A DNA stretch of 64,000 nucleotides from Terebella lapidaria (Eukaryota; Annelida; Polychaeta; Terebellida; Terebellidae), in assembly GCA_949152475.1 (NCBI GenBank), contig OX424570.1, positions 3,398,181-3,462,180 on the forward strand, given 5' to 3'. The notes under the pieces are model-generated. The model saw only the letters and a program-made list of their open reading frames with translations, searched no databases and was not told the DNA's origin. Below, piece after piece: positions 12,336 to 64,000 of the stretch. The translations under genes and the position numbers were made by a program. Every line of letters starts with the position of its first letter. Position 1 is the stretch's first letter.

Positions 12336-15300
12336 TCAGACTTGGCAGTTGAGGATGGCCTTCCACGGGATCAGTGGCAGGGAAGCTTGTGACCTTGGGC
12401 TTTGACCTTGACCTTGCACAGAGGTCACGGAAGGAGTCTTGTCCTTGAGGTCATGACCTTGACCTTTACGCGGAGAGGGTGTGACGAGTGCGGGAAGCTG
12501 CAAAAACAACAGATGAAAACCTTTAACTATATATATATTATCATCACTAGGGCATTTAGTGTACGATATGACTTTGATTCATATTTATACATTCTAATAA
12601 ACATCATCACGAGATTTACGCAATACTGCACTTACATTTATAGCGCAAAATGAGTAATGATTACCAAATACCCTGTTATAGACTACGTGAGTACATCATT
12701 ACAGAAATACATAAGACCTTGGTCTTATGTATTTCTGATCATTAGTATCCAAGCTGCGATAAGAATATTCTATTTGTGTTCCCTATGTAATGCTCACACT
12801 GATGGAAAAGAGCACACACAGAATATAGAATGGTTGGAAGGGGGGGGGGGGGGGGGATGTGAAGAACAACTACAGGATTGTCTCTATACAGCAAAAAGTG
12901 CAAAACTCAAATGTGCAGCAAGATCTGTAGTGGACAGGATTACCAAGACTACCAAAAATACCAGTATTGATTAATATTACAAAGATGTTCTTGCAGTATG
13001 TTGACTGTGGAAATGAGTATACTCAACAAATTGAACACGGGGACCATACACATACAGGCACATGCGGGAAATACAGAGCCAGCCACAAAGTTATCCATCA
13101 GATCAGCTTGATCATCAGCAATGCACAAACTCAACAGAACACATGCACAAAAAAATGGATGATATTTATTGTGACATAATCAATTAAAAAATTAGCCCAA
13201 AGGCTAAGATAGGTTACCGGACAATTTTGGTTTGGCCATGGCAGCATTGGCAGGTAACAGACCTTGAGATTTACCAATCAAGGTTCGCAGTGTAAACATA
13301 TGACCTTGGGATTTACCAATCAAGGTCATCCGTATGAACTTCGATGTAACCATTACATGTATGTGTGCGGCATTTGATATTCTATATGTTGGGTGGAATC
13401 GTTTAGGCCGCCTAGGTCAATTTACACATTCCAAGTCAGACATTTGGCACTCAAGGTCATCTGACGTCAAGTTCAAGGTCATCATTAGTTGTGCCATATA
13501 TGTCTTCCTATATGTTCATAATGCAAACATGAGCTCTATCTGCAAGCATTTCATCTACAAAGGCAAATCTGGGCATTTTTTGACTCCAAAATGGCTGTTT
13601 TGACCTTTCAAGGTCATCGAAGGTCAAATTCAAGGTCACCACACAAGTCGGCATATATGACTTCTCATTTGAAAGTGCCAATTTCTAAGCTCTATCTTCA
13701 AGCGTTCTATGAGTACAGTCCTGACAGCTCCCATTATGAAGGAAAAAAGTGCCGAAAATTTTCTAAGTCCAAAATTTTTTTCAAAGGGTGAAAATTTTTT
13801 TTTGCCTAGAAATGGCCCAAAATGGATAGTAATGTTATTTGGGGCGAAAAAAAAATTTTTCACCGATTCGTCGAAAATTCAAAATGGCCACCACACTGAG
13901 ATCGGCGATTCAAGGGCAACAAAACTTATACACGTCACAGAGGTATATGAGAGGAATCTTTTTAAGCAAAAATCTCAAAACTGATCAGACAGTTTTTGAG
14001 AAAATACAGACCAGGTGCAAATTTGAGCGTTTTTCGACCCAAAAATGGCTGTTTTGACCTTTCAAGGTCATCCAAGGTCAAATTCAAGGTCACCACACAA
14101 GTCGCCATATATGACTTCCCATTTGAAAGTGCCAATTTCTAAGCTCTATCTTCAAGCGTTCTATGAGTACAGTCCGGACAGCTCCCATTATGAAGGGAAA
14201 AAGTGCCGAAAATTTTCTAAGTCCAAAATTTTTTTCAAAGGGTGAAAAATTTTTTTTGCCCTAGAAATGGCCCAAAATGGATAGTAATGCGATTTGGGGC
14301 GAAAAATTTTTTTTTTGCCGACCCACCAAAAATTCAAAATGGCCGCCACACGGAAACCGGCAGATTTAGGGCAACCAAACTTATACATATCACAGAGGTA
14401 TATGAGGGGAATCTTTTGAAACCAAAAACTCAAAACTGATCAGACAGTTTTTGAGAAAATGGCCGTCAAAGTCCAAAATTGAGCGTTTTTCGACAAAAAC
14501 GGCCGCCATTTTGAAAAAAATGCGAAAATCAAAAAACAAAAAAATACCTCCTTCTCAAAATATTTTTAGGCATTTTTGTGCAAAATTTCAGATAGATTCG
14601 ATCGTTAACTTTAAAGATAAAAATGTTAACGCCGGACGGACGGACGGACGGACGGACGGACGGACGGACGGACGGACGGACGGACGGACGGACGACGGAC
14701 GCAACGCCATGCCAATAGGTTATCGGACCAAAGGTCCGGTAACCTAAAAACAACGAAAGTCCAGTTTTGCCTCCCCTCGAACAAACCAATCTTCACCTTT
14801 AAATGCCAAGTGGAGGAAAATCGAGACCCTGTGAACTTAGATCATGCTGAGTCGAAGAGGCAACCTTCGGCTCGCAATACCTTTAGCTGACGACACGGGG
14901 GTTTTCAGATCACATACAACCTCTACCAATCGCTTGTTGCCAAGGTAACGGCCAACCTACCAGCAAGGTGAGCAGCAGTTGGGGAAAGAAATATAATTGG
15001 AGAAGACTTGCATTAGTTTTTGAGGCAAGTAGGATAGATCATTCTATGAACAGAACATTGCAAACAGTTGCCCCGAGTCGATTTTCTCGATTCGTTTTTT
15101 GATTGTCCAACAATAATCAAAGAACATTAGAAGTACGAGAAGTGATTAGCTTTGATTGTCCCAGCAAAAATTTAGTTGGTGAAGCCGCTGTTAATGAAAG
15201 CCGAGGAGATATGGTCAATAAGCATGATAAGCAAATTGCCAAAGGAGAAAACGGCTGTTGTTGTACCAATATTCTGGTAATACCTTTGTGTCAAGTACGT

Positions 15301-18300
15301 GGAAAATCACACAATGCGATGTTCATTAATTTCTAAAAATAAATAAATAAAAGATGATAGAATATAAGTTATCTGACACTGTTCCAAGTCAACTTCTGAT
15401 TGTGTTGACTTAACTTAATCTTATCTAATCTTTGCACCTTATCTTATGAAACTAGATGGTTAGGTCGCAGGTGACCATATATTTGTATCCCTGACATACT
15501 GGTACCATCATCCACTTCACCAGATTTATCAACTCATCATTATAGCATACAAATGTGAATGCTGATACAATATTTTGTCAGACAGCAAAGAATCTTACCT
15601 CAATAGCAATAAAAAAAACATATTAGTTTAAAACTAGATGCTTCCGGTCACCTACGACCGCTTGGGTGTATCCCCCGTAGCACTATCATTCCTTTTGCCC
15701 CAAATATATTACATGTACTAATAAGTGTGAAAAACTAGAACAAGGGATAGAAAAGATTACCAGAGAAATGTAAAATCTTGGGCCACAACTGTTCTTTTTT
15801 CCCACCAAAATTGCTGCATTAATCTTTCAAGGTTATTGAAGGGCGATTTCAAGATCACCACTGAAACCATTTCGACATGTTCGATAACAAAAACGAAATC
15901 ACAGCCAGATCAAACTTTTCACCTAAAATTATATTTCAACTCAGGATTTTTGACATACTTGGTTACCTTGTTGAGCTCAATAATAAATGTTTCTCGTCTT
16001 AACTATTATTATTGAGGTTAATGATAGATTTAACTAGCAAAAATAATGTTAACTTATTTGGTTACAGCCATAAAATCTCTACTGGACAGAACCTTTACCT
16101 TGTTGAGCCCAATAACAAATATTTCTTGTCTTAACTATTTTTATTGTGGTCAATAATAGACTTAACTAGTAATATTAAGGTTAACTTGTTCGGTTACACT
16201 CATGAAATCTGTACCGGACAAAACCTTCACCTTGTTGAGCTTATTAATAAATGTTTCTCATCTTAACTATTTTAATTGTGGTCAATAATAGACTTAACTA
16301 GTAAAATTGAGGTTAACTTATTCGATAATATCGATCTGTTTTCACTAAAAACATCAGTCCTCTATTCTGAACAAGAATCCAGTGCTATCTATTTTCATAG
16401 TACAGGGTATTGGATTGATCACAGATGTTCAAGTCGGTATTTTAACGGTCGTAATAAGTTAGTCCGTTAACTAGTTGATATTTATTCGATCATTCTGAAA
16501 AACGATAGGCTTCGTGTGAGGGTCGTTCTCTCCGAGTCTATGCGATTTCATCATCATTCATTGAAAACTCCCACTCGTAGAGCGTTCACAAACCATGTGT
16601 GTCAAACAGGCTAATTTGAGCACAAAATGTGTCGCCAATCGGCCAATTTGGTTGCTATGGCAACCAAAATCGATTGGTGTCGGGATCTTACCATAAGATG
16701 TGTCTGTATAAAAAATTATTAGAATCGGTTAAGATTTGCAACCTGTAGCGCGTTCACAAGAAAGTGTCTGCGGACGCGGACGCGGGCGCGGACGCGGCGC
16801 GACGAAGACAAATCCATAGTATCCGCCGAACTTCATTCGGGGGATACAAATATATATATTGATCACATATTTTATTTTATTTATTCTTTTATTCATTTTC
16901 TTCTACCTCAGTTGAAAAATAGTTATTCTTATCAGAAATTTATTATATTATCAGAAAAGACTTTTACTCCTATAGTATCTAATTTCATTGAACATAACTG
17001 AAGATATGAAATTCCAATGTCCTTCCCGAGTTATGGTCCCTGATATCGCTGACTCGTACACTCACCGATATATGGTCGTGCATGCGTTTTCTCAGCAGCT
17101 TATAGTACTCGCAGTAATGTTTGTGATCCTGGCGGATTTTAGGGTTTGCGAGACGGGACTCGCGATCGGGTGCGGGCGGTAAAGGCTCCCCCCACGCGAA
17201 CGACGGCTCAGCCTTGGTCAGGGACGGAAGCTTGGAGTCGGCTTGTGCAGTCACCGCAGCTTGTGGGTCACTGTCCAGACAAAACTCTCCATTAGCTTTT
17301 TTTTCACTATTTTTTTTAATAATTGACATGCAATTCAAAATGTGTGTTATATAATTTGTGGCAAATATTTATTTATTTTTTGTTAAATTGATAAATGAAA
17401 TAAATATCAGGAACTTATAAAAGTGGTTGTTATGATAAGCTATACAAACAAAACAATCTCACTGGTAGAAAAGAAATTGGAACAGGCAATAAGGGGAAAT
17501 CATATGAAGAAGGAACACTCAGATATAAAACACAACACATACTTTGAGACATGCACTTTGGGCAGGTGGGGGATTTGTTCCCCCGGGATTTCTGTGTTGT
17601 CATTGAAACTACGACGGATCGCATATCGACGTAGAATGTTCACGTTTATGGGGACTCCCGTTGTCCAGTGCAGATCCAAGATACCATAACTGGTGCGACC
17701 GAAATCCCTGGGGTTTTAGAGAGTTCAGGAAAAAATATGGGAATAAAGAAACTGTAACACACCAAACACACGTCCATGCAATCTTAAAGGTGAAATCTAT
17801 CAATGCATCAACGATGAAAATATGGTGTTATACATGCAAAAAAATCAAATACACATACAAACTGCAAGACATGTAATAAGAACACCCAGGCAGTAAATTA
17901 GCTATTTAGCAAAAATATCTACAATGATCCATCATTTTTCTGTCTATATAATATCGAGCACACTTTTATATCATAGGTACTAGCTACCGGGTAGTTGAGT
18001 TTAATTCAAAATGAACATATGTTGAATATTCGTTTTCTTAGTTCCTTCAAAATATCCAGTAAAACCCCCAAAAAACCATGAAAGTAAACAGACACGAATC
18101 GTCGAACAAAATGACATTCCGAAATGTAGCAAAAAATAAATCACATCACACTATAGCAAAGAGCACACAACATCACAGGAAGGATGAATTCATGAAAGCC
18201 CCACATACTCAGCCACAGTGGTCGCAGCCAGTTTTCCGTGGATGGGGTCGATTTTATGGCGCGGGGTCAGTCGGTCATCCACACCAGGATAGTCAGCACT

Positions 18301-22336: not shown

Positions 22337-25300
22337 CTGTGTGGGTAAAGTTAGGACAGTTTACACAACATAGCACCAAGGGTGCTGTAGCTTACCGGCA
22401 ATCATGAGAAACGCAGAGTATTGATTTTCCAACATATACATTGTTACACTGATCTTGAACTCTAATTGTCAAAAAATGTTCGTAAATGTTGCTGGAAACA
22501 CATTTTCTGTATGGACTATAGTACGAAATCAAATTACACATCACAAAGGTACATAAAGAGAATCTTATACATGATTTTGAGAAAAACTGTCTGAATAAAT
22601 TTAGACAAAATGGCCACCAAAGACAAATTTCATCGTTTTTGACCTTCCAAGGTCATTATAATAATGAGCATTTTATAGTCTAGGATCACCAACTCAAGTC
22701 GGTCTCTCTGACTGCACAATTATTATCCCCGGCAGACCTGTTCACTCCGACACATACTCAACCTCCTGGGAGGCATACAGCTCCATGTGCAGCCATTATT
22801 TGGCGCAGGGAAACTGTGCATACACAATTGCCATCTCTGTCTATTGCCAGGTGCCCATTATACTGTTTGGGTGAACAGCATACAGCAGCGCAGGTGAATG
22901 CACAAACAGGGTCACCCATCCATGTATTACCCACGCCTAGCGTTGCTTAACTTCGGTGATCTTACGGGTACCGGTGTGTCATGCGCTACAAGGCCGTCAT
23001 TGAAGGTCAAATTCAAGGTCATCACTCAAACCGCATTATATGATTTCCCATTTGAATGTGCCAATACTTAGGCTCTATTTTGAAGTCTTCTATGAGTTTA
23101 CTCCGCACAGCTCCCATTATGAAGGAAAAATTGGGTGAAATTTTCTAAGTCCAAAAATTTTTTCAATGGGCAAAAAAAATTTTTTTTTTTTTTTTGCTGG
23201 AAATGGCTCAAAACGAATAGTGACTTGATTTGGGACAAAAAAATTTTTTTTCGCCGACCCGTCAAAAAATCAAAATGGCCGCCACACGCAGACCGGCAAT
23301 TCAAGGGCAACGAAACTTATACACATCATAGAGGTACATGAGGGGAATGTTTTAAAACAAAAATCTCAAAACTGATCAGACAGTTTTTGAGAAAATGGCC
23401 ATCAAGTCCAAAATTGGTCATTTTTCGACAAAAAAAGGTCGTTTTGACCTTCCAAGGTCATTGAAGGTCAAATTCAAGGTCATCACTCAAACCGCAATAT
23501 ATGGTTTCCCATTTGAATGTGCCATTACTTAGGCTCTATCTTCAAGTGTTCTATGAGTTTACTCTGCACAGCTCCCATTATGAAGGAAAATTGGGTGAAA
23601 TTTTCTAAGTCCAAAAAATTTTTGATGAAGGAAAATTGGGTGAAATTTTCTAAGTCCAAAAAATTTTTCAATGGGCAAAAAAAATTTTTTTTTTTTTTTG
23701 CTGGAAATGGCTCAAAACGAATAGTGACTTGATTTGGGACAAAAAAATTTTTTTTCGCCGACCCGTCAAAAAATCAAAATGGCCGCCACACGCAGACCGG
23801 CGATTCAAGGGCAACGAAACTTATACACATCATAAAGGTACATAAGAGGAATGTTTTGAAACAAAAATCTCAAAACTGATAAGACAGTTTTTGAGAAAAT
23901 GGCCTCCAAAGTCCAAAATTGGCAATTTTTCGTCAAAAATGGCCGCCAAATCGGCAAAAAAGATTCAATCAAAAAAATTAAAAAAACGTCTTTAGATACT
24001 GGCCCAAGGTATGTTCTGACAAATTTATGGGGAAATTCATCACGTCAAAAAAAAGTTACAGACCCGGACGGACGACGGACGGACGACGGACGACGGACGA
24101 AATACCACGACAATAGCTTATCGGCCCAAAGGGCCGGTAAGCTAAAAAGACATGCAACAAAGTCGTGAAATTTCAACATTTATATGGGTGACAATAATTA
24201 TTTATGATTTTATGCCCTTGATCACTGACCTCTGGCCGTAATTTGGAGTCAGTTCCGTCATGTTCAGTTGCTTGGATACTGCTCGCGCCCCACCTATAGT
24301 AAACAAACTCAGGAATAGAAATATTCTCGAGTGATTGTCTGCTTGGTTGACGGTACATGAAATTCTTGATGGTAATCAGAGAATAAAACTTTCTCAGTTA
24401 TTTTTGTTTGTTTGCATAAATGGCAAATAATTTATCACATCGTCACCATGGCTATCAAACATGCAGTAATCAGCACACAAAGTTCGCAGTCAGCATGGAT
24501 CATGCCAGTCTAAAGCTTCAACAAATGTGACACCGCTCTATACAGTGCGAGTTGTGCACAGTGAGAAACTGCACATATTTACAGTTTAGTCACCAGACAC
24601 CATGACATTTACGCGTGTGAGGTATGTTGTGATCTACCGGTACATCACCGATTATGCATGCGTTTGTGTACAATGGACATAATATTGTCCCAAATGTAAC
24701 AAATCATTGTGCATTTACATTTACAACATCAAAGTGCGACAAGAAGGCAACCTTCAACATTTGGTTGCTCTGAAACATCACTCAAGATAATATCTTGAAT
24801 TTCCTCTTCTTCTTTATAAGCATCAACACGCGTAGCTTTGATGTTTCCTCCTACGCGCATTTCTTCTTCTTCATCTTCATTTGCCACATTTTTATCCCAA
24901 ATGTCGTCTGGGTTTTCCAATTTGCCATCATCATTTTTCATAAGCAATGAGTTTGATGCTGTTATTTCCTCGGCATTATCCGAGGAGCCCATCACAGGCA
25001 TGGAAGTCGAGTGAGTGGCGATCATTTGTCGTAATTTTAGGACTCTAGCTGATGACGAACGTGAAATTCGTTCATGCTTTCTTCCGGCAATAGATTTGTT
25101 AATATCATCAGTGTCAATGTTTATTTCTTGTTTCTCTTCGCCTGTCTCCACACAAACAGATTTATCACAGCGCTCATCGAGAATATTTGTTGGTTCTTCT
25201 TTACGTCAATTGTCATAACAGCCGTATGTTCATTGAAGTGAATTACAAATTAAAGTGAATTTTGTGACACCATAACATATTTTTTTGTTCCAAGCAGCAG

Positions 25301-31300: not shown

Positions 31301-34300
31301 TATAACACAACATGTGGAAAAACTGATTTTCGATGACATTTAAATTGAAGAACTGAAGCAACTCATCGAACAAATTTTAAACATATTTCTTGGTTTAAAT
31401 GCATTACAAATTGGTGGTTTCATGAAATACATGTAGACTACAGTTGATTTTCTAGTGGGATATGTGGGTGGGTGGGTGTTGGGGACGGATGGAGTGGGGT
31501 TTGTATGGTAATGATAACGAGAGGGGGAGGTGAGTTGGATAGCTCTAATGAACTACCGTGTACAACCAATGGTGGATGGGGTTCACACAACATGGAACGC
31601 CTATTTAAGATTGTCAGAAATTATCACTCACTTTTCCATCTCTCACCCAGTTTTACAGACGACTTTCGGCGCTGAGGCCCCATGGCACTCAGTCTGTGCT
31701 CAGAGTGCACTGCGCACTCTGCACTCTCAGTGGCACTAACGGCCGACGCTTGGTGTTGGATCTGGATGCAAGGTGACTGGCGGCTACAAGTGTTCCTATG
31801 GCAACGACTGCTGTTTCTGCTTCTCTCCCGATGTGCGGATAGTTTTACTGTGGCGTCTTCCCTCTTTTTGGCTGCAAAGTGACATGTTTTATTTCTAAGT
31901 TGTCTTTAAACATATTACATAATATCTCACTCAAGTGATCATTTTGTCAGAAGAATTATGTTTTTGTGGTATGGATCGAAAATAAGCTTTCAATGACAAA
32001 ACATAAAATACCATCAAAGCAAAGATATCAAATTTGTATGGGGAAGATCTGAATAACCCTTTCTTGAATCTTACCCATGGATATATTGACCTCTCCATAT
32101 ACTGAACATCATTATCTGCACCGCTTATATGCATGCAATGAGGTACATAACAATAGGCTTAGGAACCACAAGATAGGAATAGAGCTTACTGAATTCATTC
32201 CAGGATCTGTGAGGACTTGCGTCTCGTGTGTGTTGTATTTCCCCTGTAGAAAACAAAATTCAACCTCATCACATCAATCCTGATGTTGAGGAAATGAATA
32301 TGAACACACTTTACCTGCATTCAATACAATAATGGATGTAAAATGCCTAAAAATCCCAGTGCTGAGATTTTACCTGCCTACATGAATGTATATGCATGTG
32401 TGCTAATTATTTTGTGCCACTACTTCTAGCGCTGATGTTTCTGTACAGTTACCATGGCAGCGAGAAAAGCAGACAAGTAATTACTATAACACCCCTAATT
32501 AACTGCTAGAGGCCGGGTTGATGCTCTATAAGTCTATCCTAGGTATGTGTAAAACTAAGTCCTACACATTTGTCAATATATGATCACATCCATATTTAGC
32601 TACTTCATATAATTAATTCATTCCTGATGACTCAGTTGTTATAGATTTAAATACCATGGCAACCATATTTGCTTTGATTTGCACCTTTGCACCGTGTTGC
32701 AGGACTTTAGAAGTGACAGTTTATCAGAAGATAGTGTTGATTGTATGACGTACGACATAACTGCGACGTAACTAATTCGTTATTAGAGATTGCAGCCGAG
32801 TGAACATTTAATCATCTCGTGAACTTTCTAATCCGTGCAAAAAAAAAGCAGGAATTCATTTATGATCGTCATACAATGTCAAATAATATCGTTCCACACA
32901 TATCTTTCGAACAATGACTACGACAAAAAAAATCCTTGTACCCAATGTCCCTCAGGGCCGATGTAAGGGAAACAATAAAGATCCGCTTCAAAAAATACTC
33001 AAAGCTTGGAGTCGCTCAGGCGTGACTTGCACACGTCTATGGCAGTTCACGCTTGACTTGGCACGCTCGCACACCTCCGCCCGCCCGTCTGTCTCCCTCC
33101 CCACCTCATTATATAAGGATATTAACTCAACGGGATATTATTCTTTCCCGTAGGTGATCAATGTTTATTCGCCATGGTATCGAGGGGAGCTTTTGTTCAT
33201 GATTCCAAAGCCCCGATGAATCTTTGAAGGAAGCACGAGGGATGGGATTTGGTAGCGGTGTTTTTTCCTATGGTGATGGGAAAATAATATACCCAATGGC
33301 GACAGTGCGATGCTAGAAAAGACTCAATTGGCGACCATGTGGCAGGGTTTATTTGGCGTGATGTTTGTAATCAATAAAACCTTTTATCCTGATTGCAAAT
33401 CCTATTGTTACATCTTGAAATGATTCAAACTCATTATAACATTATAACTAGACGTCAAGGCCTAAAGATGCCTTGGAGGCATTTCGGTGTGATGATTAAT
33501 TTATAATATATACTAGATATCGAAGAAAATGAAAAATGTCGACTCCGTTAAAATAATACCCCTTAGACATGTTTGTCTAGGGCGACGAGTCCGAAAAAAA
33601 AGTCCGTTTCGCTCTACGACTCACCGTTTCCGAGATATCGACGAAAACGAGAAATGCCGACTCGGCAAAAAAATTTCGGGTCAAGGTCAAAGTTCATCCA
33701 TAATACCCCTTAGACATGTTTGTCTAGGGCGACGAGTCAGATAATGACGTCCGTTTCACTCTACGACACACCGTTCCCGAGATATCAACGAAATCGACGA
33801 GTCAGAAAAAAAAGTCTGTTTCGCTCTACGACTCACCGTTTCCGAGATATCGACGAAAACGAGAAATGCCGACTCGGCAAAAAAATTTCGGGTCAAGGTC
33901 AAAGTTCATCCATAATACCCCTTAGACATGTTTGTCTAGGGCGACGAGTCCGATAATAACGTCCGTTTCGCTCTACGACACACCGTTCCCAAGATATCGA
34001 CGAAAATCAAAAGTTCTAAAATAACTTTTATTTTTATACTATGCATACTTACCTCTGACTCTGGGGTCGTGTAATTGGCGAGCCCTCATTCGCCAACCAC
34101 ACATGAAATATGGGTGAAAAAGCTAAACGAAAGTTAGCCGGTCCGTTTAGACCCTGCGTTAGTAATGGTAGTTACCTGAGCAGTTCACCCTCCGTGTGGT
34201 AGCATAATCGTGCCGGTCCACTGCCTCCCAGTTCACTTTTGTTGAGTTGCAACACTTGATCACTGAAGGTTATCTTCTGAAAAGACAAGAAGATAATCAG

Positions 34301-40300: not shown

Positions 40301-43300
40301 ACAAAAGTGAACTGGGAGGCAGTGGACCGGCACGATTATGCTACCACACGGAGGGTGAACTGCTCAGGTAACTACCATTACTAACGCAGGGTCTAAACGG
40401 ACCGGCTAACTTTCGTTTAGCTTTTTCACCCATATTTCATGTGTGGTTGGCGAATGAGGGCTCGCCAATTACACGACCCCAGAGTCAGAGGTAAGTATCG
40501 CTTAGCATAACAAACGAGAAATGCCGACTCGGCAAAAAAATTTCGGGTCAAGGTCAAAGTTCATCCATAATACCCCTTAGACATGTTTGTCTAGGGCGCC
40601 GAGTCCGAAAATAACGTCCGTTTCGCTCTACGACACACCGTTCCCGAGATATCGACGAAAACGAAAAATGCCGATTCGGCAAAAAAATTTCGGGTCAAGG
40701 TCAAAGTTCATCCATAATACCCCTTAGACATGTTTGTCTAGGGCGACGAGTCCGAAAATAATGTCCGTTTCGCTCTACGACACACCGTTTCCGAGATATC
40801 GACGAAAACGAAAAATGCCGACTCGGCAAAAAACATTCGTGTCAAGGTCAAAGTTCATCCATAATACCCTTAAGACATGTTTGTCTAGGGCGACGAGTCC
40901 GAAAATAACGTCCGTTTCGCTCTACGAAGCACCGTTTCCGAGATATCGACGAAAACGAAAAATGCCGACTCGGCAAAAAAATTTCAGGTCAAGGTCAAAG
41001 TTCATCCATAATACCCCTTAGACATGTTTGTCTAGGGCGACGAGTCCGAAAATAATGTCCGTTTCGCTCTACGACACACCGTTTCCGAGATATCGACGAA
41101 AACGAAAAATGCCGACTCGGCAAAAAACATTCGTGTCAAGGTCAAAGTTCATCCATAATACCCTTAACCCTTTCACCGGCGTGACCCTCGCGAAAAGTGT
41201 GCGCTACACGGCGCTCCCCTGGGAGATTTCTGGAAATTCGCGATATTGATTTAATATTGCCGATTTGGTAAGCAATGTAAGGTCCGAAGCATGACATATT
41301 ATATACCAAATTAAAGAGGATAACTTACTGAAGACAATAAGACCACTTGCAGCTTTATATCATCATTTTTGATGGAGATATGGTAAGATGAGTGAAATTT
41401 TTAAAGAAAATATCAGATTTTCAAAATACGATATATTGCGCCTTGTCCCGATATAAGCCAAATTTTAAATTTCTTTTATCCTTTTGATGGTGTTTGTTAC
41501 TATAAATATTCTGTTATCTGCTGGATGAAGCTTAATTGGTGGCTCCTGTTTTTATTTTTCAGATTACCATGCCAAATGCTGTAGCACAGAAGAAAAGAGA
41601 ATCGGATGTTTTCAAAAAATTTAATGAACTTTGGCGAATATGACTTTTGTATGAACATAATGTATCTGCAGGTAAAATATTAAATATTGCTCCAACAACA
41701 CCTGGTTACTTCTCTCCTCAAGAACAATGAATACTCACATGAAATGCAATATTCAAGTTAAAATAACATCAACAGGTATACACGGCCATGACAGTATGAG
41801 TATGATATAGATAAATAAAATCAACAAGTCATAACATACACAGTGAACATGATGCAAGTATTTCACAAATACAACCATGGAAGTGGAGTAAATTTATCAT
41901 CCGTATCTACAACAATTGTATACGAATATAATAAATAAGAATAACTATGTACAAATAAATAATAACAATAGTTCCATGAGCAAAACGGATATCAGTAATG
42001 AGCAGTCACACTCTAAGAGTCACACTCTACGCTTCCCAAGGCATTGGACGCCAGAACTCGACAAGCGTGTGGAACTTGGCCCAGCAGTTGGAGTGCTTCC
42101 AGGTTCCATCGTCCTGCTTGACGCGCTTGACACAAAGCCCGACGTTGCAGGTGCTGCATACGATGGTGGTCTTCACCTTCTTGCAGTTGTCGGGGACCTG
42201 AGCGTAACTGGCATCAGGATGCCGCTTGGTGTAGCGCTTATAGCGCTCCCGACAGACGACACAGGTGACGTTGGTGCTCGAACCGATGTCAGGGAAGTGG
42301 TCGAGGGTTTTGTTCAGCCTGTCATGAACACCTTCGCCCCCGGTTTCTCGGGGCCGCTTCAAGGGGATACGCGTGTCACCGATGAGGGCGTGGGCAATGT
42401 CGAGCCGGAAGCCGAGGAGGTCTTGCTTGCGATGTCCAGCGGTGGGGGGGTTGTCGTTCTGGTACAGGATGAAGGCATTGTGACAGACCCACTCCAGGAC
42501 CTTGACGACTGCTCGCATGTACCATCTTTTTTGTTTTCGACCTTTGTCGACTCGTGTCAGCTGGTCCAGGATGTCGACACCGTTCATGTTGTCATTGTAG
42601 TCCCTAACGAGGGCTGTGGCATCGACATCAACACGGCGTCCCTCGGCGTTTCGGCGCTGGACCACATCGGCATCTGGGTAGTGAAAGTTTGACAAGAAGT
42701 AGTTCTGATTCGAGTCGTACCAACGCACAGCCAGTAGGTTTCCACCACGCCTCCAGTCCCACTCTCCCTTTTGCCCCTTCTTCTTGACCAGGTTCTTCGG
42801 GAAGCCCTTTCTGTTTACCTGGCAGGTCCCAGCTGCCCCGATCCCCTCAACTGCCAGGTGGTGGAACAGTGTTGGTGATGAGTAGCCTCGATCCACCGTC
42901 AACTTGTGTCCCTGGTTCTGAAGACCAGTTATCAGCTGGGATACAATGTAACCCATGACTCCCAGGGCTGTTTTCTCGGCAGGTACAGTGACTTTTCCTG
43001 TGTAAAGCCGGAACCGCCACAGGTACTTGGTGGACTGGTCTACAAGTGCATCAACGCGAATCCCCCACTTGATGGGCTTGCTGCGGATGTACTGCTTTGC
43101 CGACCATCGACCCTTGAATGGAATCATCACCTCATCCACAGTAATCCTTTCCCCCAGGGAGAACTCGTGCTCAAACCGGTCCATGACGGTGTCCAGCAGC
43201 TGGCGTATTTTTCGGGCCTTGTCCCGCGGGTGCGTGCTGATGTACGCCTCGGATCCAACTCGAAAGTATCGCTTGATGGTGTTAAAGCGTTTTTCCTTCA

Positions 43301-46300
43301 TGATTGTCCAGAAGCCTGGAGTTCTGAGGACCCAGTGACGGCCGGTTTGTCGCCAGAGCTGCTCCAAGCGGGCTGGGTCCAGGCCGTAGTTAACGATCAG
43401 CAGAATGGAGAGGAAAACCTTGATCTCATCAAGCGTTGGGCGGGACCATGGGGTTTTGTTGTTGTCAGGCTCCGTCTCAATGTGTTGCTGTATAAAAAAT
43501 ATATATATATATATATATATAATTGAAATAACAAACGCAATGCACATGTATGCAAGAGAAAGTCAGGTAAGTCAATCAGGTGAGTGACAAATATTCAGTA
43601 ATTAAATGTAAATATTCATTGAAATATTCAGTTACATGTATACAAACATTGTCATTTCAATGTCTACATTTTTGTAAATAAACTAGTTCAGTACTGTGAA
43701 ATTATAAAGTTATAGTTTGATATGTTATGAATGGATAAAATTTGTAAATATTTGACGTATATGCAATTTATAATTGCACAATTATAAAAACGTATTTCAT
43801 CATCTTATCAGAAATTCAGAATCAAATATTTTTTTGTTTCATTGATATTCGTTAGATATATTGATAGTACATGTAATGCATTGAAGCTAAAACATATGGC
43901 TAATTGCTCACTGCCCAGTGCTGCCACCTACTGGATAAATGTAACAACAAACTACTAGTTTCCCAAAAGTTTCCATTCAGTATATAATTGTGTGTACCAT
44001 ATGGCTAGGTTATATGCAGTGCTGCCCTCTTGTGGCAATATTAGCAACTTGAAGGGCACTGAATTTACTTTACTTTCAATAAATTCCGCAATCCATCACA
44101 TAAATAAAAACTAATAATATCTATTTGTTATTCAGTGAAAATTAACAGGAAAAATACACATAATTCCTTCAAATAAAATCATTACATTTAGTTCCTGTTC
44201 AATTATTTTATTTTATATTTAATCTCAATATGTCTAGGCTAGATTTGACATTTGTGGAAAACATGAAATATTTTCACCGCTTCCATTTTCGGATCTATGC
44301 TCTATCTATGTATTTATTTATATGTATTTAATAGAATTATACTGATGTCCAGTATTTATTTACAGCTAGTATACTCTATAAGCTATTATTCCATAATTTA
44401 ATTTCTGTTTGTGTTTCAAATATCACTGAAATAAACACAAACTGCAAAACTTACCATGGCATTTTCGTGGGTACACTCGATCCAAAACTCGAGGAGATCG
44501 TCATCGATGAATTTGTTGAAGTACTCAGTGGGCGGCCTCTGGGCTGGGAGTGGGTGGGTGGGACCCCCTCGACCACGGAAGTCGGGGATGGGATTTGGCC
44601 TAGCATACGCACTCTTCGACCACTGGAACTGTGGCACAGGGACATCGCCAAATCCCCCAAACCAGTCACCATCATCTTCCTCAAAAATCTCAGCCAAATC
44701 GCGGTCTGACAAGCCACTAATGTCGGAGGCGTCGGATTCAGAATCAGATTCAGAATCCGAAAAATGTATGACATCTGTCAGATCAGACATGTTGTTTACA
44801 TTCACGACCAGCAACTCGGCAAAAATGCGCAGAAAAACGATCTCAAATCGCTTTACTTACCTGACAAAACTGACAATAAAACGAATCCGCCGCCATTTTT
44901 AAATGCCGCATATACTATGACGTAAAAATGGAGTCGCGACTTGTAAAACAATTGACACAAAACACCATTTTATTAACGAGACAGATCGTTTTTCTTCACA
45001 ATGTCAGACATTTTGTTCAGAAGGGAATCCCGCGTGACGTCACACCCCAGATTTGCCGCGAAAACCAAGCATTCTGGGTATTCTGACCTGATTAGGTCAA
45101 CACGAAGTAAACAAAGCCACGTGGACCGGTATACCGGTCCATGCCGTTGGAGAACGTCATTTTGACGGACCGGTATACCGGTCCAGACCGGCGAAAGGGT
45201 TAAGACATGTTTGTCTAGCGCGACGAGTCCGAAAATAACGTCCGTTTCGCTCTACGAAGCACCGTTTCCGAGATATCGACGAAAACGAAAAATGCCGACT
45301 CGGCAAAAAAATTTTGGGTCAAGGTCAAAGTTCATCCATATCTAGGGCGACGAGTCCGAAAATAACGTCCGTTTCGCTCTACGACACACCGCTCCCGAGA
45401 TATCGACGAAAACGAAAAATGCCGACTCGGCAAAAAAATTTCGGGTCAAGGTCAAAGTTCATCCATAATATCCCTTAGGCATGTTTGTCTAGGGCGACGA
45501 GTCCGAAAATAACGTCCGTTTCGCTCTACGAAGCACCGTTTCCGAGATATCGACGAAAACGAAAAATGCCGACTCGGCAAAAAAATTTCGGGTCAAGGTC
45601 AAAGTTCATCCATAATACCCCTTAGGCATGTTTGTCTAGGGCGACGAGTCCGAAAATAACGTCCGTTTCGCTCTACGACGCACCGTTTCCGAGATATCGA
45701 CGAAAACGAAAAATGCCGACTCGGCAAAAAAATTTCGGGTCAAGGTCAAAGTTCATCTATAATACCCTTAAGACATGTTTGTCTAGGGCGACGAGTCCGT
45801 AAATAACGTCCGTTTCGCTCTACGACACACCGCTCCCGAGATATCGATGAAAACGAAAAATGCCGACTCGGCAAAAAAATTTCGGGTCAAGGTCAAAGTT
45901 CATCCATAATACCCCTTAGACATGTTTGTCTAGGGCGACGAGTCCGAAAATAACATCCGTTTCGCTCTACGACGCACCGTTTCCGAGATATCGACGAAAA
46001 CGAAAAATGCCGACTCGGCAAAAAATTTTGGGGTCAAGGTCAAAGTTCATCCATAATACCCCTTAGACATGTTTGTCTAGGGCGACGAGTCCGAAAATAA
46101 CGTCCGTTTCGCTCTACGACGCACCGTTTCCGAGATATGCAGGATGCCTCAAGGATGACTCAGCAAAAAATTATTTCGACCTCTAGGTCAAAGGTCGTTT
46201 GACGTATCGATCCCAAAATCAATAGGGTTCTTCCCTGGTGGCATATGAACCTCCATGCAGAGTTCTGCAACTATTGCGTAAATATTTTTCCAGTTATTGT

Positions 46301-49300
46301 CCGGAAACCAAGTTTCAAGATCAGCCTCGATTTCATCCTCAAGGACCTCACGGACCTCGGAGCCGGATCAAAAAAAATAATACACCCTAGAGATGTTTGT
46401 CTAGGGCGACGAGTCCGAAAATAACGTCCGTTTCGCTCTACGATGCACGGTTTCTGAGATATGCAGGAAGCCTCAAGGATGAATCAGCAAAAAATTATTT
46501 CGACCTCTAGGTCAAAGGTCGTTTGACGGATCGATCCCAAAATCAATAGGGTTCTTCCCTGGTGGCATATGAACCTCCATGCAGAGTTCTGCAACTATTG
46601 CGTAAATATTTTTCCAGTTATCGTCCGGAAACCAAGTCTCAAAATTAGCCTTGATTTCATCCTCACGGACCTCACGGACCTCGGATCCGGCTCAAAAAGA
46701 ATAGGGTTCTTCCACATATCATTTCTGACTTGTGGTGAAAATTTGACTAGAATCCGACAAGGCAATCTAAAGTTATCGTCCGGAAACCAAAAGTGGCGGA
46801 AGAAGAAAAAAAAAAAAAATAAATAAATAAATAAATTCTGCTAAAACCATAAAGGCATTTCTGCCGAAATGCCTTAATTATGTTATAATGATGTTGAATC
46901 GATTCATACTGGGAATTTCAAATTCTACAGAAGTTTTGTTTCCCATATTCAAAATATTTATGTTACCATGGTTACGATCTTTATACTTTGAATCTTGTTA
47001 CATTTACTTAGAATTCGTCAGTACCAATTCAAGTGTTGATAAACAGATGAATGAATCTACTGCAGCGCATTCAACGCCACAAATATTTCTGAAATATTCA
47101 CTTAATCCTGGGATATCCAAGACTAGAATCAGTAAAGAAAACTCAACAAATTAATGTTCGGTTTACAGAATGGGCCACTGCATTAGTTTTTCCAGGTAGC
47201 ATATATTCTCAAGTATGTTTTTTCCATTCATAACTCAACACTTACCATCCTGGGCTGACAGGTGTCGATATTTCTCGTAGATCGTTTCTAGGCTTCTTGT
47301 GTCCTTGGCGCTTTCCGAGTCAAATTCACAAGGGTCCTCCTGTATCGGCAGTTGATTTTCTTTGAATATTTTCTGTCTGTCCGTCAGATTAAATGGATAA
47401 ATCGGTCCTTGGTCACTGTTGTAGCTGCAATCAAAATTTTACCAACAATATAAACATTATAAAGATATTTTTTTTACAAAACTGTGTAGATCTAATCACC
47501 TTTGATGGAACTTAATCAATTTAGTCAAATGTGTGACAAATAATGGACAAAAATTTTATTTTGTGGTTCATCTGACATTTTTCACCCCAATCGAAAATCG
47601 AACACCCATCTAGAACCTCCACAATGTCATCCCTATTTGTAGCCCACATGTGTGTTTATACAATCAGGTAATCATGAAATCTAAAAGTGAATATTTCGCT
47701 TTCTATCTCTGCAATAATTGGTGACAACTTTCAACCTAGAGAAAATACCATAAAACTTCAACGTTTTTCGTGTACAATCGTCATGAGATACATAGATTGT
47801 TGAAAAAAAAATCCAACAAAAGCCGTCCAATCTACTGTGAGAAATCACAGGTAACAATAACTCTTCAATTATCCTGTCAATGCTTAACAATCAAATATTG
47901 ACCTAAGCTGGCTACAATACAATCTTAGAAACAATCAATAGGTATTATACCCTCATGTGTTGATAAGATATAGCACATATTATCAATATTTGATTGTATA
48001 TTGAGTATGTACTTGTCATATTAACAACTAGACAATCATATATATACGGAAGGCATGTGCAGTGAATACTTTATGAAATCGCACCAAACCATTTACATCA
48101 AGCCATTGCTTGCAGAAGTTTCAGTATTAGGTTTCAAATCACAAATAATTCACTCATACATCACAACCACAGTAATGTATTTACTTTCAAAATTGTACAC
48201 TTGTTGAGCAGGTGTGATTCCAATAAAATAAAATTTTTGTAGCCTCCAATTGGAGATTTCAATAAATTTACATCTGCATTCAACAAATTTACATTTTCAA
48301 TTGAAATAGGAAGTAACTAGATTGGTTTTAAAATGTCTAACATTAAGTTCCTTACCAGGTATTAGTGAAAGCCAACGGAAATTCCTTCAGCTCATCCTAA
48401 AAGAATAATATATAATCAATACAAAGACGTATTAATTCATGTTTTGCCTTGTGATATGTAATCCAAGCTCAAGTTTTCTGAGCACACGGATAACATGAAT
48501 GTTACAGTAACCATACTATTCGCAATCCCCCATCATCATGCCATATCGCGCCTTACAACACAAACATATACAACCCAGACAATTGCTCAGCAGTAAATCC
48601 CATTCCAACACCAGATGAAATAGTTATAATTCACCCCGCTACCAGCCCGCCCCGCTCAGCGCGAAACACTGGCACCTTCGCCACACTTCACTGGTTACAG
48701 CCCTTTGTTTGTTGCCTGGCAACGCGACAGTTTTTTCGTGTCCGTGGGCTGGAGAACCCATTGTCTCTTGCGATGGGCGCGATTGTTCGCCTGAGAGCAT
48801 TACTGTCGAGAAATGGCAGGAAGGAACGGAACTTTCCGTCCCAGGGCGAATGGGAAACTACAAGTCTAGTCAATCTCATTTCAGTGGCTTTTATATGAGG
48901 CTTTGCACGACACATAAAGTATTGCAGTTTTTAATGTTCTGAAGTGATATACACTAGAAACCAAGTGCCAAAAAATAATATAGAAACAAATCCACAAAGC
49001 ACAAAGCATTGTCGAACGAATATTGACACAATATTGGGATTTATTATCATTTCACTTGCGAATTTCCTGTTGACTCAGTAATCGTTATTTTCAGAACAAA
49101 GAAAGGTATCGAATAGATGAAAGACAGTTTACAATATACAAGGATATTTAAATGTACCATTGAAAGTCAAACACCAACCTCAAAATGACAATTGACCAAT
49201 GTTTCCAATCGATCCAACGGAAGATAATCCACGATTCCGATGAAGCTGAGGAAATAAATGTGGAATATTTAATCAGTATTTCATAATAATGGCACGTAAA

Positions 49301-55563: not shown

Positions 55564-55573
55564 CTGGGCAATA

Positions 55574-56607: not shown

Positions 56608-56663
56608 TTATTCTACTACTACAGGTAATTATAACAAATCAATTAGCAGAATCAATCCCTGTA

Positions 56664-56840: not shown

Positions 56841-56842
56841 TA

Positions 56843-57744
56843 TACCATATCACAGAATAAAGAGTCCAAATATACATGGACATATAAATGTTCCTGACTT
56901 TCATACAAAATCTTTTGTCAATGCAATGAATATGAAAAGTTACATATATTATATTGCATCCAACTGGATACAAGAACGACAGTGAAAAGTCCAATTTTAT
57001 AAATCTGGAAAAATTTTATTCCTTTTCTCATGGTGAACAGCTGTACAGGAACACAATGTATTGTTTACAAATTTAACGGCTTCTGAATTTGTCATTCAAA
57101 TTCCTAAGAATATCTTTCTTTCCACTAATACTAGTAGAGTAATATGTATGATGTGAACAGTGTTAATTGACATCAATGAATCTAGAAATTTTCATGATCA
57201 GTCGTGATTTCGACAAAAAAACAGACATGATTAAAATTTAGAGACATGTAAATAAATTTTATTGCAGTTTTACGTCACATCTTTTACAGCTTTTCATGAC
57301 TACTCACACGTATAATCAATGCTCGAGTGTTTTGGTCAGCATATATTGAGGAGGCAACAGCTAAATATTTTGACTTTATTGTTAAGTGACTTGTTGATTG
57401 GAAATAGTCATGTGTAAACACATACACACTTTGGCGAACTGCGCTTAATTTGTGAGATTTTAAAAATGCATGACATATATCTCAACACCCCTGATGTAAT
57501 GCAATTGGCAATTCCCTGTTATCAACAGAGATCTAACCATGCACATAATGTACTCACATACATACAGCCATAAACTGATATCAACGACCTCTTCAGAAAG
57601 TACTTTTCACTATAAAATAAATCGAAGCTCAGGAAAGCAGAAATCACTTTGTATGATATTGACTTTTGTATTCTTGCACGTGGAGAGGGAAGGGTTCGTA
57701 AATTCACAGAACTGTTCTGAAACTTGGAAAAAGTCTTTAGAACC
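56843..57744. other. 5' flank of the protease gene
   Basis: AT-rich, no exon recognised. The promoter of the protease presumably lies here, but no convincing TATA box or start could be chosen. Confidence 0.4.
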
Positions 57745-59601: not shown

Positions 59602-59883
59602 CTAGATGCTTCCGGTCGCCTACGACCGCTTGGGTGTATCCCCCGTAGCACTATCATTCCTCTTGCCCAAAATATATTACTAATAAGTGTGAAAAACTAA
59701 AACAAGGGATAGAGAAGATTACCAGAGAAATGTAAAATCTTAGGCCACAACTGTTTTTTTTTTCCCATCAAAATTGCTGCATTAATCTTTCAAGGTTATT
59801 GAAGGGTGAATTCAAGATCACCACTGAAACCACTGCATATGAATGTCCATTTCGTCATGTTCGATAACAAAAAAGAAATCACA

Positions 59884-61972
59884 TTTTCGTAGTACGCGTA
59901 ATGTATATTTTGCCGAAATAAAAAGATGTAGGAATGAACACGAACAAAAATTTCTTCATAGCGCCGCTGCTAATGTTCATTCAAACCCACGAAAATGGTG
60001 GGCACAATCCAAAAAAATACTAGGCACTTCTAATATGTCAATACCAGTTATTTGTGCGAATGATGAGGTGATAGTCAGCGATGAGTCAAAGGCTGAGAAA
60101 TTTAATGAACACTTCTTGCTGAATTCTTTCCTTGATGACTCCAATGCAGTGTTACCCGATGATTATCCACAACTCACAGAGGCTTGTTTATCAAATATAC
60201 AATTTAGTGAGCTTGATGTTGCCAAACAATTACTTTCTCTCAATCCAAACAAAGCGTTCGGTCCGGACGGCATAAGCCCGCGTCTTCTGAGAGAAACAGC
60301 ACCTGCAATACAGAGAAGCCTGTGTCAATTGTTCAAACTCTCTTTAACGCTATGCAAATTTCCGACGAATTGGAAAAAGGCAAATGTAATTCCACTCTTT
60401 AAGAAACATGACCGTTCCTTGCCCAATAACTATAGACCCGTGTCCCTTTTGAGCGCAGTTGGGAAAACCATGGAAAGATTGGTTTTCAGCTCTTTGATGT
60501 CATTTTTCGAGGAGAATTCTCTGCTGTCAGTATGGCAATCTGGATTTATACCAGGTAGATCTACGGTTACACACCTCGTAGAAATGTATAATAGTTTTTG
60601 TGAAACTGTGTCGAGAGGGAGGGAAATCAGGGCTATATTTTTAGATATAAGCAAAGCTTTCGATAGAGTGTGGCATAGCGGTTTATTGTTCAAACTAAAG
60701 AAATATGGTATACATAATGATTTGCATGTATGGCTCACTGACTATCTAGAAAATCGCACACAACGAGTTGTCATCAATGGGCAATCGTCAAGCTGGTCAC
60801 CTGTAAGTGCGGGTGTGCCACAGGGATCCGTTATTGGGCCGTTGTTATTTCTTGTCTTTATTAATGATATCACGCTTGCTGTTAAGAATTGTAATATACG
60901 TCTCTTCGCAGATGACACATCTATTTTCATTGAAGTAAATGATAGAGAGGAAGGGGCGATTTTGATCAATGAGGATCTACAAGCGATTTCATCATGGGCT
61001 GACAAGTGGCTGGTCACTTTCAATGCTTCAAAATCCGAATCTCTCGTTATATCCAAGAAACGTGATCTCGGGCATCATCCCCCTGTATTTTTGAATGGCT
61101 CCATTATTGAGGAGACTACCAGTCATAAACATGTTGGCGTAACGTTCACTAGGGATCTTTCTTGGAGCAGCCACATATCAGACCTTGCTTCTAAAGCTAC
61201 TAAGGTATTGAATGTTATCAAGCCATTCAAATTTAAAATGGACAGATTATCTTTGGAACGTTTATATATTTCCTGCATTAGACCTATTATGGAGTATGCA
61301 GATGTTGTTTGGGCTGGGGCCAATTTAACTGATTTATCAAAACTTGACAAAGTTCAAAAGGAAGCCGCTAGACTAGTAACAGGCGCCACTGCCCGCTGTA
61401 ATTCAGCCGCGTTAATGGCTGAATTAAATTGGATTCCTCTCTCCGAGAGAAGAACACGTCATAGACTATGTCTTTTTTATAACATTGTCAATGGTCATTG
61501 TCCACAATATTTGATTGAATGCTTGCCGGAGTCTGTAGGCCAAAGATCAGCTTATGCTTTACGATCATCCTCTAATTTCACTGCTATACCATCTCGACAT
61601 AAGTATATGTCATCCTCTTTTTTTCCGTCTACGATTACGTCTTGGAACGCATTGCCCATAGACGTGCGTAATGCTACCAACAGAAGGATCTTCACTCACA
61701 ATCTTTCCACTAATGATACTATGCGCAATCCCCTGTATTATAGGGGTGATCGCTTTGCAAATGTTCATTTAGCCCGCATGAGAATTGGCTGCAGTCTTTT
61801 GAATGATCACTTACATACTAATTTACATGTGGCGGATAGCGCAGCTTGCCGATGTGGCTATGTGAAGGAAGACCCAGACCATTATTATTGTGTACATAGT
61901 ATGTGTGTTTCTGTTTTTCTCGTTGTGTTGAGACCCATTAATATAAGCTTTTGCTTGTTTGGGGATCCTTAA
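59884..61972 (+). CDS. LINE reverse transcriptase, open but lacking endonuclease
   Basis: Open frame of about 695 residues entering at the truncation. RT landmarks: NPNKAFGPDGISPRLL, NYRPVSLLSAVGKTMERLV, SGFIPGRSTVTHLVEMYNSF, IFLDISKAFDRVWHSGLL, GVPQGSVIGPLLFLVFIND and the active site IRLFADDTSIF. The thumb-like C-terminal part has RPIMEYADVVWAGA and LNWIPLSERRTRHRL. A cysteine motif CRCGYVKEDPDHYYC follows, after which the frame soon ends, shorter than usual for the family. The true start codon is lost, so this is a dead-on-arrival copy despite the open frame. Clade assignment (jockey/CR1 group) is from memory and approximate. Confidence 0.88.
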
Positions 61973-61992
61973 ATAAAGTTTATATAAAAAAA
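59884..61992 (+). mobile_element. 5'-truncated non-LTR retrotransposon (jockey/CR1-like LINE)
   Basis: Flanked by the 13-bp duplication AAAAGAAATCACA (59871-59883 and 61993-62005). It ends with AATAAAG and a run of about 11 A, which merges with the duplication. The 5' end starts within the second ORF, so the first ORF and the endonuclease are absent, as in normal 5'-truncated LINE insertions. Copy A of the host repeat shows the matching empty site near 15884-15896. Confidence 0.92.
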
Positions 61993-62004
61993 AAAAGAAA
62001 TCAC

Positions 62005-62390
62005 AGCCAGATCAAACTTTTCACCTCAAGTTATATTTCAACTCAGGATTTTTGACATACTTGGTTCCAAGTTGCAATTCAAAGTAAAAATTGACCAAAA
62101 CTGCATTTCAAGATAACGAAATTGGAGCCAGATCGAACTTTTCACCATAAGTTATATATCAACTCATAATATGTGACAAACTTGTTTCCAAGTTGATATT
62201 CAAAGTAAAAGTTGACCAAAACTGCATTTCAAGATGACGAAATTGGAGCCAGATTGAACTTTTTACTATAAGTTATATTTTTACTCATAATATGTATCAA
62301 ACGTAGTTTCAAGTTGAAATTCAGAGTAAAAGTTGACCAAAACTGCATTTCAAGATGATGAAATTCGAGCCAGATCAATATTTTAGTAAA
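62005..62390. repeat. ~118-bp tandem units in family 1 copy B
   Basis: GAGCCAGATC followed by AACTTTTCACC, then AAAGTTGACCAAAACTGCAT, recurs about three times. Copy D has the same units near 63660-64000. Copy A retains less than one, so unit number varies between copies. Confidence 0.85.
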
Positions 62391-62439
62391 AATAATGTTA
62401 ACTTATTCAATTACATCTCTACTGAACAAAACCTTTACC

Positions 62440-62800
62440 TTGTTGAGCTCAATAATAAATGTTTCTCGTCTTAACTATTATTATTGAGGTCAATGATAGA
62501 TTTAACTAGCAAAAATAATGTTGACTTATTTGGTTACAGCCATAAAATCTCTACTGGACAGAACCTTTACCTTGTTGAGCCCAATAATAAATATTTCTTG
62601 TCCTAACTATTTTTATTGTGGTCAATAATAGACTTAACTAGTAATAATAATGTTAACTTATTCGGTTACACTCATGAAATCTGTACTGGACAAAACCTTC
62701 ACCTTGTTGAGCTTAATAATAAATGTTTCTCATCTTAACTATTTTAATTGTGGTCTATAATAGACTTAACTAGTAAAATTAAGGTTAACTTATTCGATTA
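62440..62800. repeat. ~133-bp tandem units in family 1 copy B
   Basis: Three units with CCTTGTTGAGC, AATAATAAAT and CTTAACTATT, in the same order as in copy A, including its third, shortened unit. Confidence 0.85.
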
Positions 62801-63402
62801 TATCGATCTGTTCTCACTAAAAACATCAGTTCTCTATTCTGAACAAGAATCCAGCGCTATTTGTTTTCATAGTACAGGGTATTGGATTGATCACAGATGT
62901 TCAAGTCGGTATTTTAATGGTCGTAATAAGTTAGTCCGTTAACTAATTAATATTCATTTGATCATTCTGAAAAAAGATAGGTTTCGTGTGAGGGTCTTTC
63001 TCTCCGAGTCTGTGCGATTTCATCATCATTCATTGAAAACTCCCACTCGTAGAGCGTTCACAAGCCATGTGTGTTAAACAGGCTACTTTGAGCACAAAAT
63101 GTGTCGCCAATCGGCCAATTTGGTTGCTATGGCAACCAAAATCGATAGGTGTCGTGATCTCACCATAGGACATGTCCATATGAAATATTATCAAAATCGG
63201 TTCAGATTTGAAAGCTGTAGCGCGTTCACAAGAAAGTGTCTGCGGACGCGGCGGCGGCGGCGCGACGATCGTAAATCCATAGTATCCTCCGAACTTTGTT
63301 CGGGGGATACAATAATTATGATAATTGTAAATGTGCATTGCACTATGATGAAGGTTTGATAAAAGTATGAATAGAAGTATGAATGAAAGTCTCTTTTTTT
63401 TA

Positions 63403-64000
63403 CAAGATGCTTTCTGGTTGCCTACGATCGCTGGGGTGTACCGGTATTCCCCGTGGCCCTATCATCCCTGTCGCCCCAAGTATATTACCGATAAGATTGA
63501 AGGATTAGAGCAAGGGCTATGGTTACCAGAGAAATGTAAAGTGTTAAGCCACAACTGTTTTTTTCCCCCAAAATTGCTGCTTTGAACTTTCAAGGTCATT
63601 GAAGGTCAAATTCAAGGTCACTGAAATCAGTGCATACGAATTTCCATTTCGACATGTTCGATAAGATGACGAGATTATAGCCAGATCGCACTTTTCACCA
63701 AAATTAAATTTCAACTCAAAATATTTGGCAAACTTGGTTTCAAGTGAAAGTTTCAAGTAAAAGTTTACCAAAACTGCATTTCAAGATGCCAGAAATGGAG
63801 CCAGATCGAACTTTTCACCATATCATGGTTCTCTTCATTCAAAATATGTGCTAAACTTGGTTTCAAGTTGAAATTCAAAGTTAAAGTTGAAGAAAACTGG
63901 ATCTCAAGATGACGAAATTGTAGCCAGATCGAACTTTCGACCATACGTTATATATTTTCACTCAAAATATGTGCCAAACTTGTTTTCAAGCTGAAATTAC
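63403..64000. mobile_element. Family 1 repeat element, copy D, runs off the window
   Basis: Starts AGATGCTTTCTGGTTGCC, with GTATTCCCCGTGG, then the AGGTCA module (63586-63620) and ~118-bp units. It begins about 90 bp after copy B ends, in the same orientation. The 3' end lies beyond 64000. Confidence 0.78.

Follow-up and report, generated by a model that had tools for sequence, protein, structure and literature searches.

Three HINE-like repeat families in the annelid Terebella lapidaria and a candidate Rep partner for one of them

Three repeat families (families 1, 2, and 3, hereafter F1, F2, and F3) in a 64,000-nucleotide stretch of the Terebella lapidaria genome (the window, C17:3398181-3462180, from a genome of 761.6 Mb in 438 contigs) are ordinary in kind, being HINE-like rolling-circle elements without genes of their own, such as oysters and flies are known to harbour. 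They very probably belong to the non-autonomous members (HINEs) of the Helitron2/Helentron group of rolling-circle transposons, with F2 likely supplied by one class of Rep genes (class F), and F1 and F3 by an enzyme that should recognise a CTAG-type end. The link to class F is the most useful new result. Thousands of elements beside long open Rep frames with a common 3′ terminus make the supplier testable. In oysters, Helentrons that carry tandem repeats are considered to disperse satellite-like DNA.

A first-pass annotation of the window had described three unrelated-looking families with one design (a 5′ subterminal motif, a long tandem core, and a 3′ hairpin complementary to the 5′ motif) and had proposed that the same Helentron-type machinery mobilises all of them. 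The initial observation was real in part but had been read in the wrong direction, and the interpretation as a whole is partly supported.

Anatomy of the three families

All F1, F2, and F3 copies in the window lie on the minus strand, and the supposed 3′ hairpin is therefore the 5′ end of the elements, a terminal hairpin formed by an inverted repeat and its imperfect inverted copy, while the real 3′ hairpins, which adjoin the supposed 5′ motif in all three families, had been overlooked. The motif, tandem core, and hairpin of the proposed design are all present, with the orientation reversed and a second hairpin to be added. Similarly, F1 and F3, described as beginning with CTAGA, end with TCTAG on the correct strand. 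The features of the window are as follows.

13191..14745, minus strand: F2a, a complete copy of 1,555 bp with a T-run at either end
14717..14745, minus strand: F2a 5′ end, AGGTTACCGGACC folding with GGTCCGATAACCT, TTTTT before
13186..13223, minus strand: F2a 3′ end, GTCCGGTAACCT, palindrome TTAGCC..GGCTAA, and T-run, the same kind of terminus as in Rep class F
15634..16847, minus strand: F1a, complete, 1,214 bp, TT flanks on both sides
16819..16847, minus strand: F1a 5′ end, in which the inverted repeat GTATCCCCCGAA folds with TTCGGCGGATAC
15634..15677, minus strand: F1a 3′ end, CGGGGGATAC before the hairpin CGGTC..GACCG, with CTAG and TT after it (covariation tested on relatives)
22372..24143, minus strand: F2b, a variant with inverted repeats changed in parallel (AGCTTACCGGCCC / GCCGGTAAGCT)
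22880-23001, minus strand: 5S rRNA-like insertion inside F2b (Rfam, 46.8 bits)
33448..46875, minus strand: F3, a single 13,428-bp element interrupted by two younger insertions (insertion limits by eye)
46852..46875, minus strand: F3 5′ hairpin AAGGCATTTCGGCAGAAATGCCTT, TT before, TATGGTTTT after
33448..33488, minus strand: F3 3′ end, CCGAAATGCCT, hairpin AAGGC..GCCTT, and GACGTCTAG followed by TT
about 34009-40511 (limits by eye): retroelement within the F3 core that encodes reverse transcriptase and RNase H domains
about 41165-45204 (limits by eye): insertion of piggyBac type within the F3 tandem core (Pfam DDE_Tnp_1_7, E 7e-60)
59602..63310, minus strand: F1b, complete, 3,709 bp including a LINE-like insertion at about 59884-61993
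59884-61993 (limits by eye): the LINE-like insertion within F1b (Pfam RVT_1), with a flanking repeat of about AAAGAAATCACA
63404..64000, minus strand: F1c, a diverged F1 relative that continues past the window end

An open frame with a Peptidase_S8 (subtilase) domain lies at 57721-59073.

Read from 5′ to 3′, F1 consists of TT, GTATCCCCCGAA with its imperfect inverted copy, TATGGATTT, a GC-rich microsatellite, about 450 bp, and 132-bp and 121-bp repeats, followed by CGGGGGATAC, the hairpin CGGTC..GACCG, CTAG, and TT. F2 comprises a T-run, AGGTTACCGGACC and its inverted copy (5′ hairpin type TTTTTAGGTTACCGGA, with one mismatch in the inverted copy common to both window copies), ATTGNCRTGG, a CGGA microsatellite, the core, GTCCGGTAACCT, the palindrome TTAGCC..GGCTAA, and a T-run. 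F3 runs from TT through AAGGCATTTC and its inverted copy, TATGGTTTT, and repeats of ~147 bp to CCGAAATGCCT, the hairpin AAGGC..GCCTT, GACGTCTAG, and TT. Tandem cores are confirmed in the families of the window; F1 and F2 show a microsatellite together with a tandem core, and in F3 the tandem core alone is clear. The termini fall into two classes: F1 and F3 share a 3′ hairpin with CTAG before TT, as well as TATGGWTTT after the 5′ hairpin, whereas F2 has a palindrome and, usually, a T-run. In every family, the 5′ inverted repeat lies at the end or a few bases from it and folds with sequence downstream, and a 3′ inverted repeat (34 bases from the element end in F1, about 23 in F2, and 29 in F3) sits directly upstream of the 3′ hairpin, which corresponds to the layout of Helitron2 elements and HINEs (3′ repeat ~20-30 bp from the end).

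Covariation of the 3′ hairpin was tested on the F1 relatives only, and there the hairpin covaries. Among 19 distinct rows, 92.1% of 114 cells are paired (the unpaired cells number 9/114, four of them at one pair), against 4-51% in slid controls of the same alignment. The covariation score is 0.296 versus 0.183 in shuffles, and seven cells are altered on both sides versus 1.5 in shuffles, with 0/500 shuffles as high in either measure; kinship among the rows can inflate this shuffle comparison, and it is preserved in the slid controls. Sibling families of F1 sought by their 3′ end gave 13 matches, none less than 15 kb from a listed Rep match when the two lists were compared by eye; one F1-type 3′ end match, at C16:20450339, lies 25 kb from a Rep match.

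The annotation's remark that both ends of family 2 changed together between copies holds, as F2a and F2b differ jointly at the 5′ repeat with its inverted copy and at the 3′ repeat. In F2b, the 3′ palindrome is AGCACC..GGTGCT and no T-run follows it. The 5S rRNA-like sequence within this copy is possibly a 5S-derived SINE. F2-type 5′ hairpins followed by non-ATTG bases at all four places, sought as a route to an autonomous F2 partner, number only three, none of them near a listed Rep match when the lists were compared by eye.

Joint change of the two ends is also seen in a relative of F3 on C130, which carries GGGCATTTCG at its 5′ end and CGAAATGCCC at its 3′ end. Another F3 relative (L084, 1-2550) has a core of ~148-bp units only ~72% like the window F3 core, with an almost identical 3′ end. 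Of the two insertions that split the window copy of F3, the piggyBac-type element entered at TTAA and has CCCTTTC-type inverted ends, and the retroelement has inverted end repeats without a clear duplication. The latter appears DIRS-like.

The impression of unrelated families applies to F3, whose core gave no match to the module described here, but not to F1 and F2, whose cores have a module of 64-67 bp in common. F1a and F2a agree at 79% over this module (59 bits, E 2e-11), and the F1 relative at 63404 agrees with the F2a core at 89% (85 bits, E 2e-19), while the best of 30 shuffles reached 28 bits.

Abundance and insertion sites

Exact-pattern counts of complete 5′ hairpins in the genome, which are lower bounds on copy number because only exact patterns were counted, gave at least 2,544 for F1, at least 11,510 for F2, and at least 2,451 for F3, with 0 matches for each of the reversed-pattern controls. 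Within the window, the F1 motif GTATCCCCCG occurs five times against 0.08 expected (one of the five, at 37647-37656, falls in the reverse-transcriptase open frame of another element), and the F3 motif AGGCATTTCGG occurs four times with at most one mismatch against 0.77 expected, a count reached by 2/100 shuffles. CTTACCGG alone, with two window matches equalled in 21/100 shuffles, is not above chance.

Genome copies show exact ends, unrelated flanks, and TT or T-rich targets. TT precedes the F1 5′ end at 31/31 distinct sites, with A before that TT at 26/31, and follows the 3′ end at 11/11 sites in F1 and 4/4 in F3, compared with a background of 9.8% of dinucleotides (0.098). F2 5′ ends have at least four T before them in 8/9 distinct flanks and TT in 9/9. 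The F3 5′ pattern showed TT in 4/7 rows, the other three being the opposite strand of the same palindromes and therefore dropped. For F1 and F3, a 2-bp TT duplication and an element-borne TT look alike in such flanks.

Three empty sites were read. F1 inserted in an F3 copy (L045 and L007 compared with the window F3) adds the element and one TT, F3 inserted in a Rep element of class B (C130 compared with C14) likewise adds the element and one TT, and a T-run surrounds F2 in a class B element on C23. Cut-and-paste duplications, named in the annotation as counter-evidence, are absent from these three sites, in which no target duplication beyond T/TT was found. A TG..CA insertion in a class B host served as a positive control; it is flanked by a duplicated ACAT (4 bp), so the empty-site method detects real duplications. 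A TT or T-rich target without target-site duplication, typical of HINEs, is seen in all three families, with F2b lacking the 3′ T-run. Together with the asymmetric repeats and the two hairpins, these sites fit a Helentron/Helitron2 (HINE) structure and bear out the earlier assignment to non-autonomous Helentrons.

Elements also occur joined head to tail. A pattern scan recovered F1-F1, F2-F1, and F2-F3 joints in 3/5 rows, the other two being dropped on account of other sequence upstream, and at C1:19064441 an F3 5′ end begins two bases past an F1 3′ end according to the coordinate lists.

Rep classes, the class F terminus, and alternative readings

A PF14214 profile search of the genome gave 150 scored matches, many of them in open frames of 2,000-2,900 codons, and no matches in 14 control genomes. 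The domains identified in class B protein pieces are OTU, Rep, Pif1, and endonuclease; class F combines a Rep domain with an endonuclease domain in the tail, in open frames of up to 2,548 codons. The 3′ DNA of class F, used as a query, gave 102 matches, of which the 33 that reach the boundary were selected; 29 of these stop exactly at base 2283, three extend past it by no more than 6 bases, and the remaining row is the query itself. The final T of CTCCGGTAACCTTTCTAGCCCTTGGGCTAATTTT, an F2 3′ terminus, falls on base 2283 (in L041, the F2 end has one T inserted and a different first base). Moreover, 24 of the 25 class F Rep matches (PF14214 profile start 33-36), the query copy included, are followed on the same strand within 25 kb by an F2-type end, at distances of 5.7-19.7 kb. 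The stretches read do not reach the class F 5′ end or include the helicase, so the match between class F and F2 is confined to about 34 bp of 3′ terminus; judged from this shared terminus, class F is likely the enzyme supplier of F2.

Six Rep 3′ regions were scanned, some of which may stop short of the element end, and class F alone among them terminates in an F2-type structure. Classes A, B, D, E, and G showed no F1, F2, or F3 end of their own in the parts read, the ends being unreached or of another type. Two candidates were set aside: an F2-type end near Rep class G appears to be part of a separate short F2-type element, and an F3 end that precedes a class B copy is an insertion, with an empty site in another copy. 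The 3′ regions of classes B and E (including L082 and L090) contain repeated units with the hairpin TACTTGGC..GCCAAGTA, which likely represent a further terminus type; at five other class B places aligned from query base 1, two stop 2-6 bases past this hairpin, two stop earlier, and one continues. The search for a Rep element with the same ends, suggested at the outset, yielded class F as a candidate for F2, and none ending like F1 or F3 appeared among the few Rep copies read.

Under the favoured reading, a Rep-helicase supplied in trans would nick at the 5′ T or TT, peel off one strand, and halt at the 3′ inverted repeat and hairpin, and the single strand would then be pasted into a TT target without duplicating it. 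Class F, which ends in the same 3′ signature, would supply this enzyme for F2, and the supplier of F1 and F3 should recognise the different, CTAG-type end.

The proposal that a single Helentron enzyme moves all three families, their cores being merely different cargo, appears improbable. It agrees with their common overall plan, the TT or T-rich targets throughout, and the core module that F1 and F2 have in common. It also agrees with the composition of class F, whose copies carry F1-type tandem repeats upstream of the Rep gene: the copy on C9 has an F1-like CTAG end upstream of the gene and yet terminates in the F2 terminus, and the upstream sequence on C12 contains diverged F1-type repeats, with no 5′ end in the stretch read. 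Assignment of the C9 end to a neighbouring element was rejected, as 11 other places span the position by alignment coordinates; its exact string is unique in the genome. However, this F1-like end is internal to class F rather than a boundary of mobility, and the termini of F2 and of F1/F3 are of two distinct classes, with a Rep class matching the F2 3′ end and no Rep end of the F1/F3 type among the few copies read. Because F1 and F3 have a different, hybrid terminus for which no partner was found, one common machinery is not supported.

That F1 and F3 are canonical Helitron1 elements (5′ TC, 3′ CTRR after a hairpin, A^T target) is less probable still. CTAG does follow the 3′ hairpin in both families, and A precedes the 5′ TT in 26/31 F1 sites, but their 5′ end is TT instead of TC, and Helitron1, according to PMC3627910, lacks the 5′ hairpin and the asymmetric inverted repeats that both families possess; F2, for its part, lacks CTRR. 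MITEs of the cut-and-paste kind, bounded by terminal inverted repeats and a duplicated TT, would account for the TT on both sides and for the complementarity of the 5′ repeat and the 3′ inverted repeat, but are very unlikely. Neither symmetric terminal inverted repeats nor a fixed duplication is seen: the element ends are asymmetric because the 3′ repeat sits 23-34 bases inside the end, and the 3′ hairpin, which covaries in F1 relatives, lies outside that repeat. The empty sites, the head-to-tail joints, and the F2-type end that terminates a Rep class argue against MITEs as well. Ordinary satellite arrays or segmental duplications without transposition, suggested by the tandem cores, can be dismissed: the patterns recur by the thousand at dispersed places, the termini are exact and abut unrelated flanks, and both empty sites and nested insertions occur.

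Within the preferred reading of rolling-circle HINEs, it is conceivable, if on balance doubtful, that termini and tandem cores are exchangeable modules. This reading draws on the class F Rep elements, which have F1-type tandem repeats and, in at least one copy, an internal F1-type CTAG end ahead of the gene, but close with an F2 terminus. Replication starting from the 5′ end of one element would pass its own terminator into a head-to-tail neighbour, and such read-through would yield new combinations and new non-autonomous families. If so, one genome would have been caught producing new non-autonomous families, and the hybrid ends, with CTAG and Helitron2-type features, would form a live intermediate class.

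Comparison with known systems

The comparisons below draw on parts of each cited paper. A close counterpart of F1 and F2 in layout is Cg_HINE of the Pacific oyster (PMC7492417), with a 5′ subTIR and complementary inverted repeat, a microsatellite (GTCC-like), a tandem core, a 3′ subTIR, and a 3′ palindrome; T-rich or TT targets without duplication and several core types per genome are further features in common with the present families. Ten autonomous oyster elements could not be related to HINEs in that study, whereas in the present genome the F2 3′ terminus also closes a Rep class whose tail is of endonuclease type. In addition, F1 and F3 end in CTAG, which the sections of PMC7492417 consulted do not mention.

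Helitron2 (PMC3627910) resembles the present families in its 5′ repeat, which folds into a terminal hairpin, in its 3′ repeat, which lies some 20-30 bp inside the end and adjoins the 3′ hairpin on the upstream side, and in compensatory changes between relatives. The algal example inserts between TTTT and T/C, and CTAG is absent from the portion of its description used here. For Helentrons, HINEs, and DINE-1, the likeness extends to subTIRs, a 3′ stem loop, and a TT target, and their Rep-helicase-endonuclease partner has a candidate counterpart in class F (PMC4067079). Fungal cases are covered in the relevant part of PMC5148889. The Phytophthora proto-Helentron (PMC4067079) is like F1 and F3 in having 5′ TT, 3′ CTAG, and an A^T target; it is a Rep-helicase element of ~14 kb without an endonuclease, and no such partner was found here.

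Oyster Helitron-like sequences (PMC7992393) are of the same hybrid kind as F1 and F3, with a CTAG 3′ end after a palindrome. SubTIRs occur in 257/751 of them, with an inverted repeat in 33% of those, and their target is A^T in 86%, to be compared with A before TT in 26/31 F1 sites. They differ in having 5′ TC and a microsatellite in only one element, as opposed to 5′ TT and tandem cores here. No autonomous sequence was detected in that study, in which the hybrid sequences were termed possible intermediates. The hybrid CTAG ends of F1 and F3 bear on the relation of Helitrons to Helentrons.
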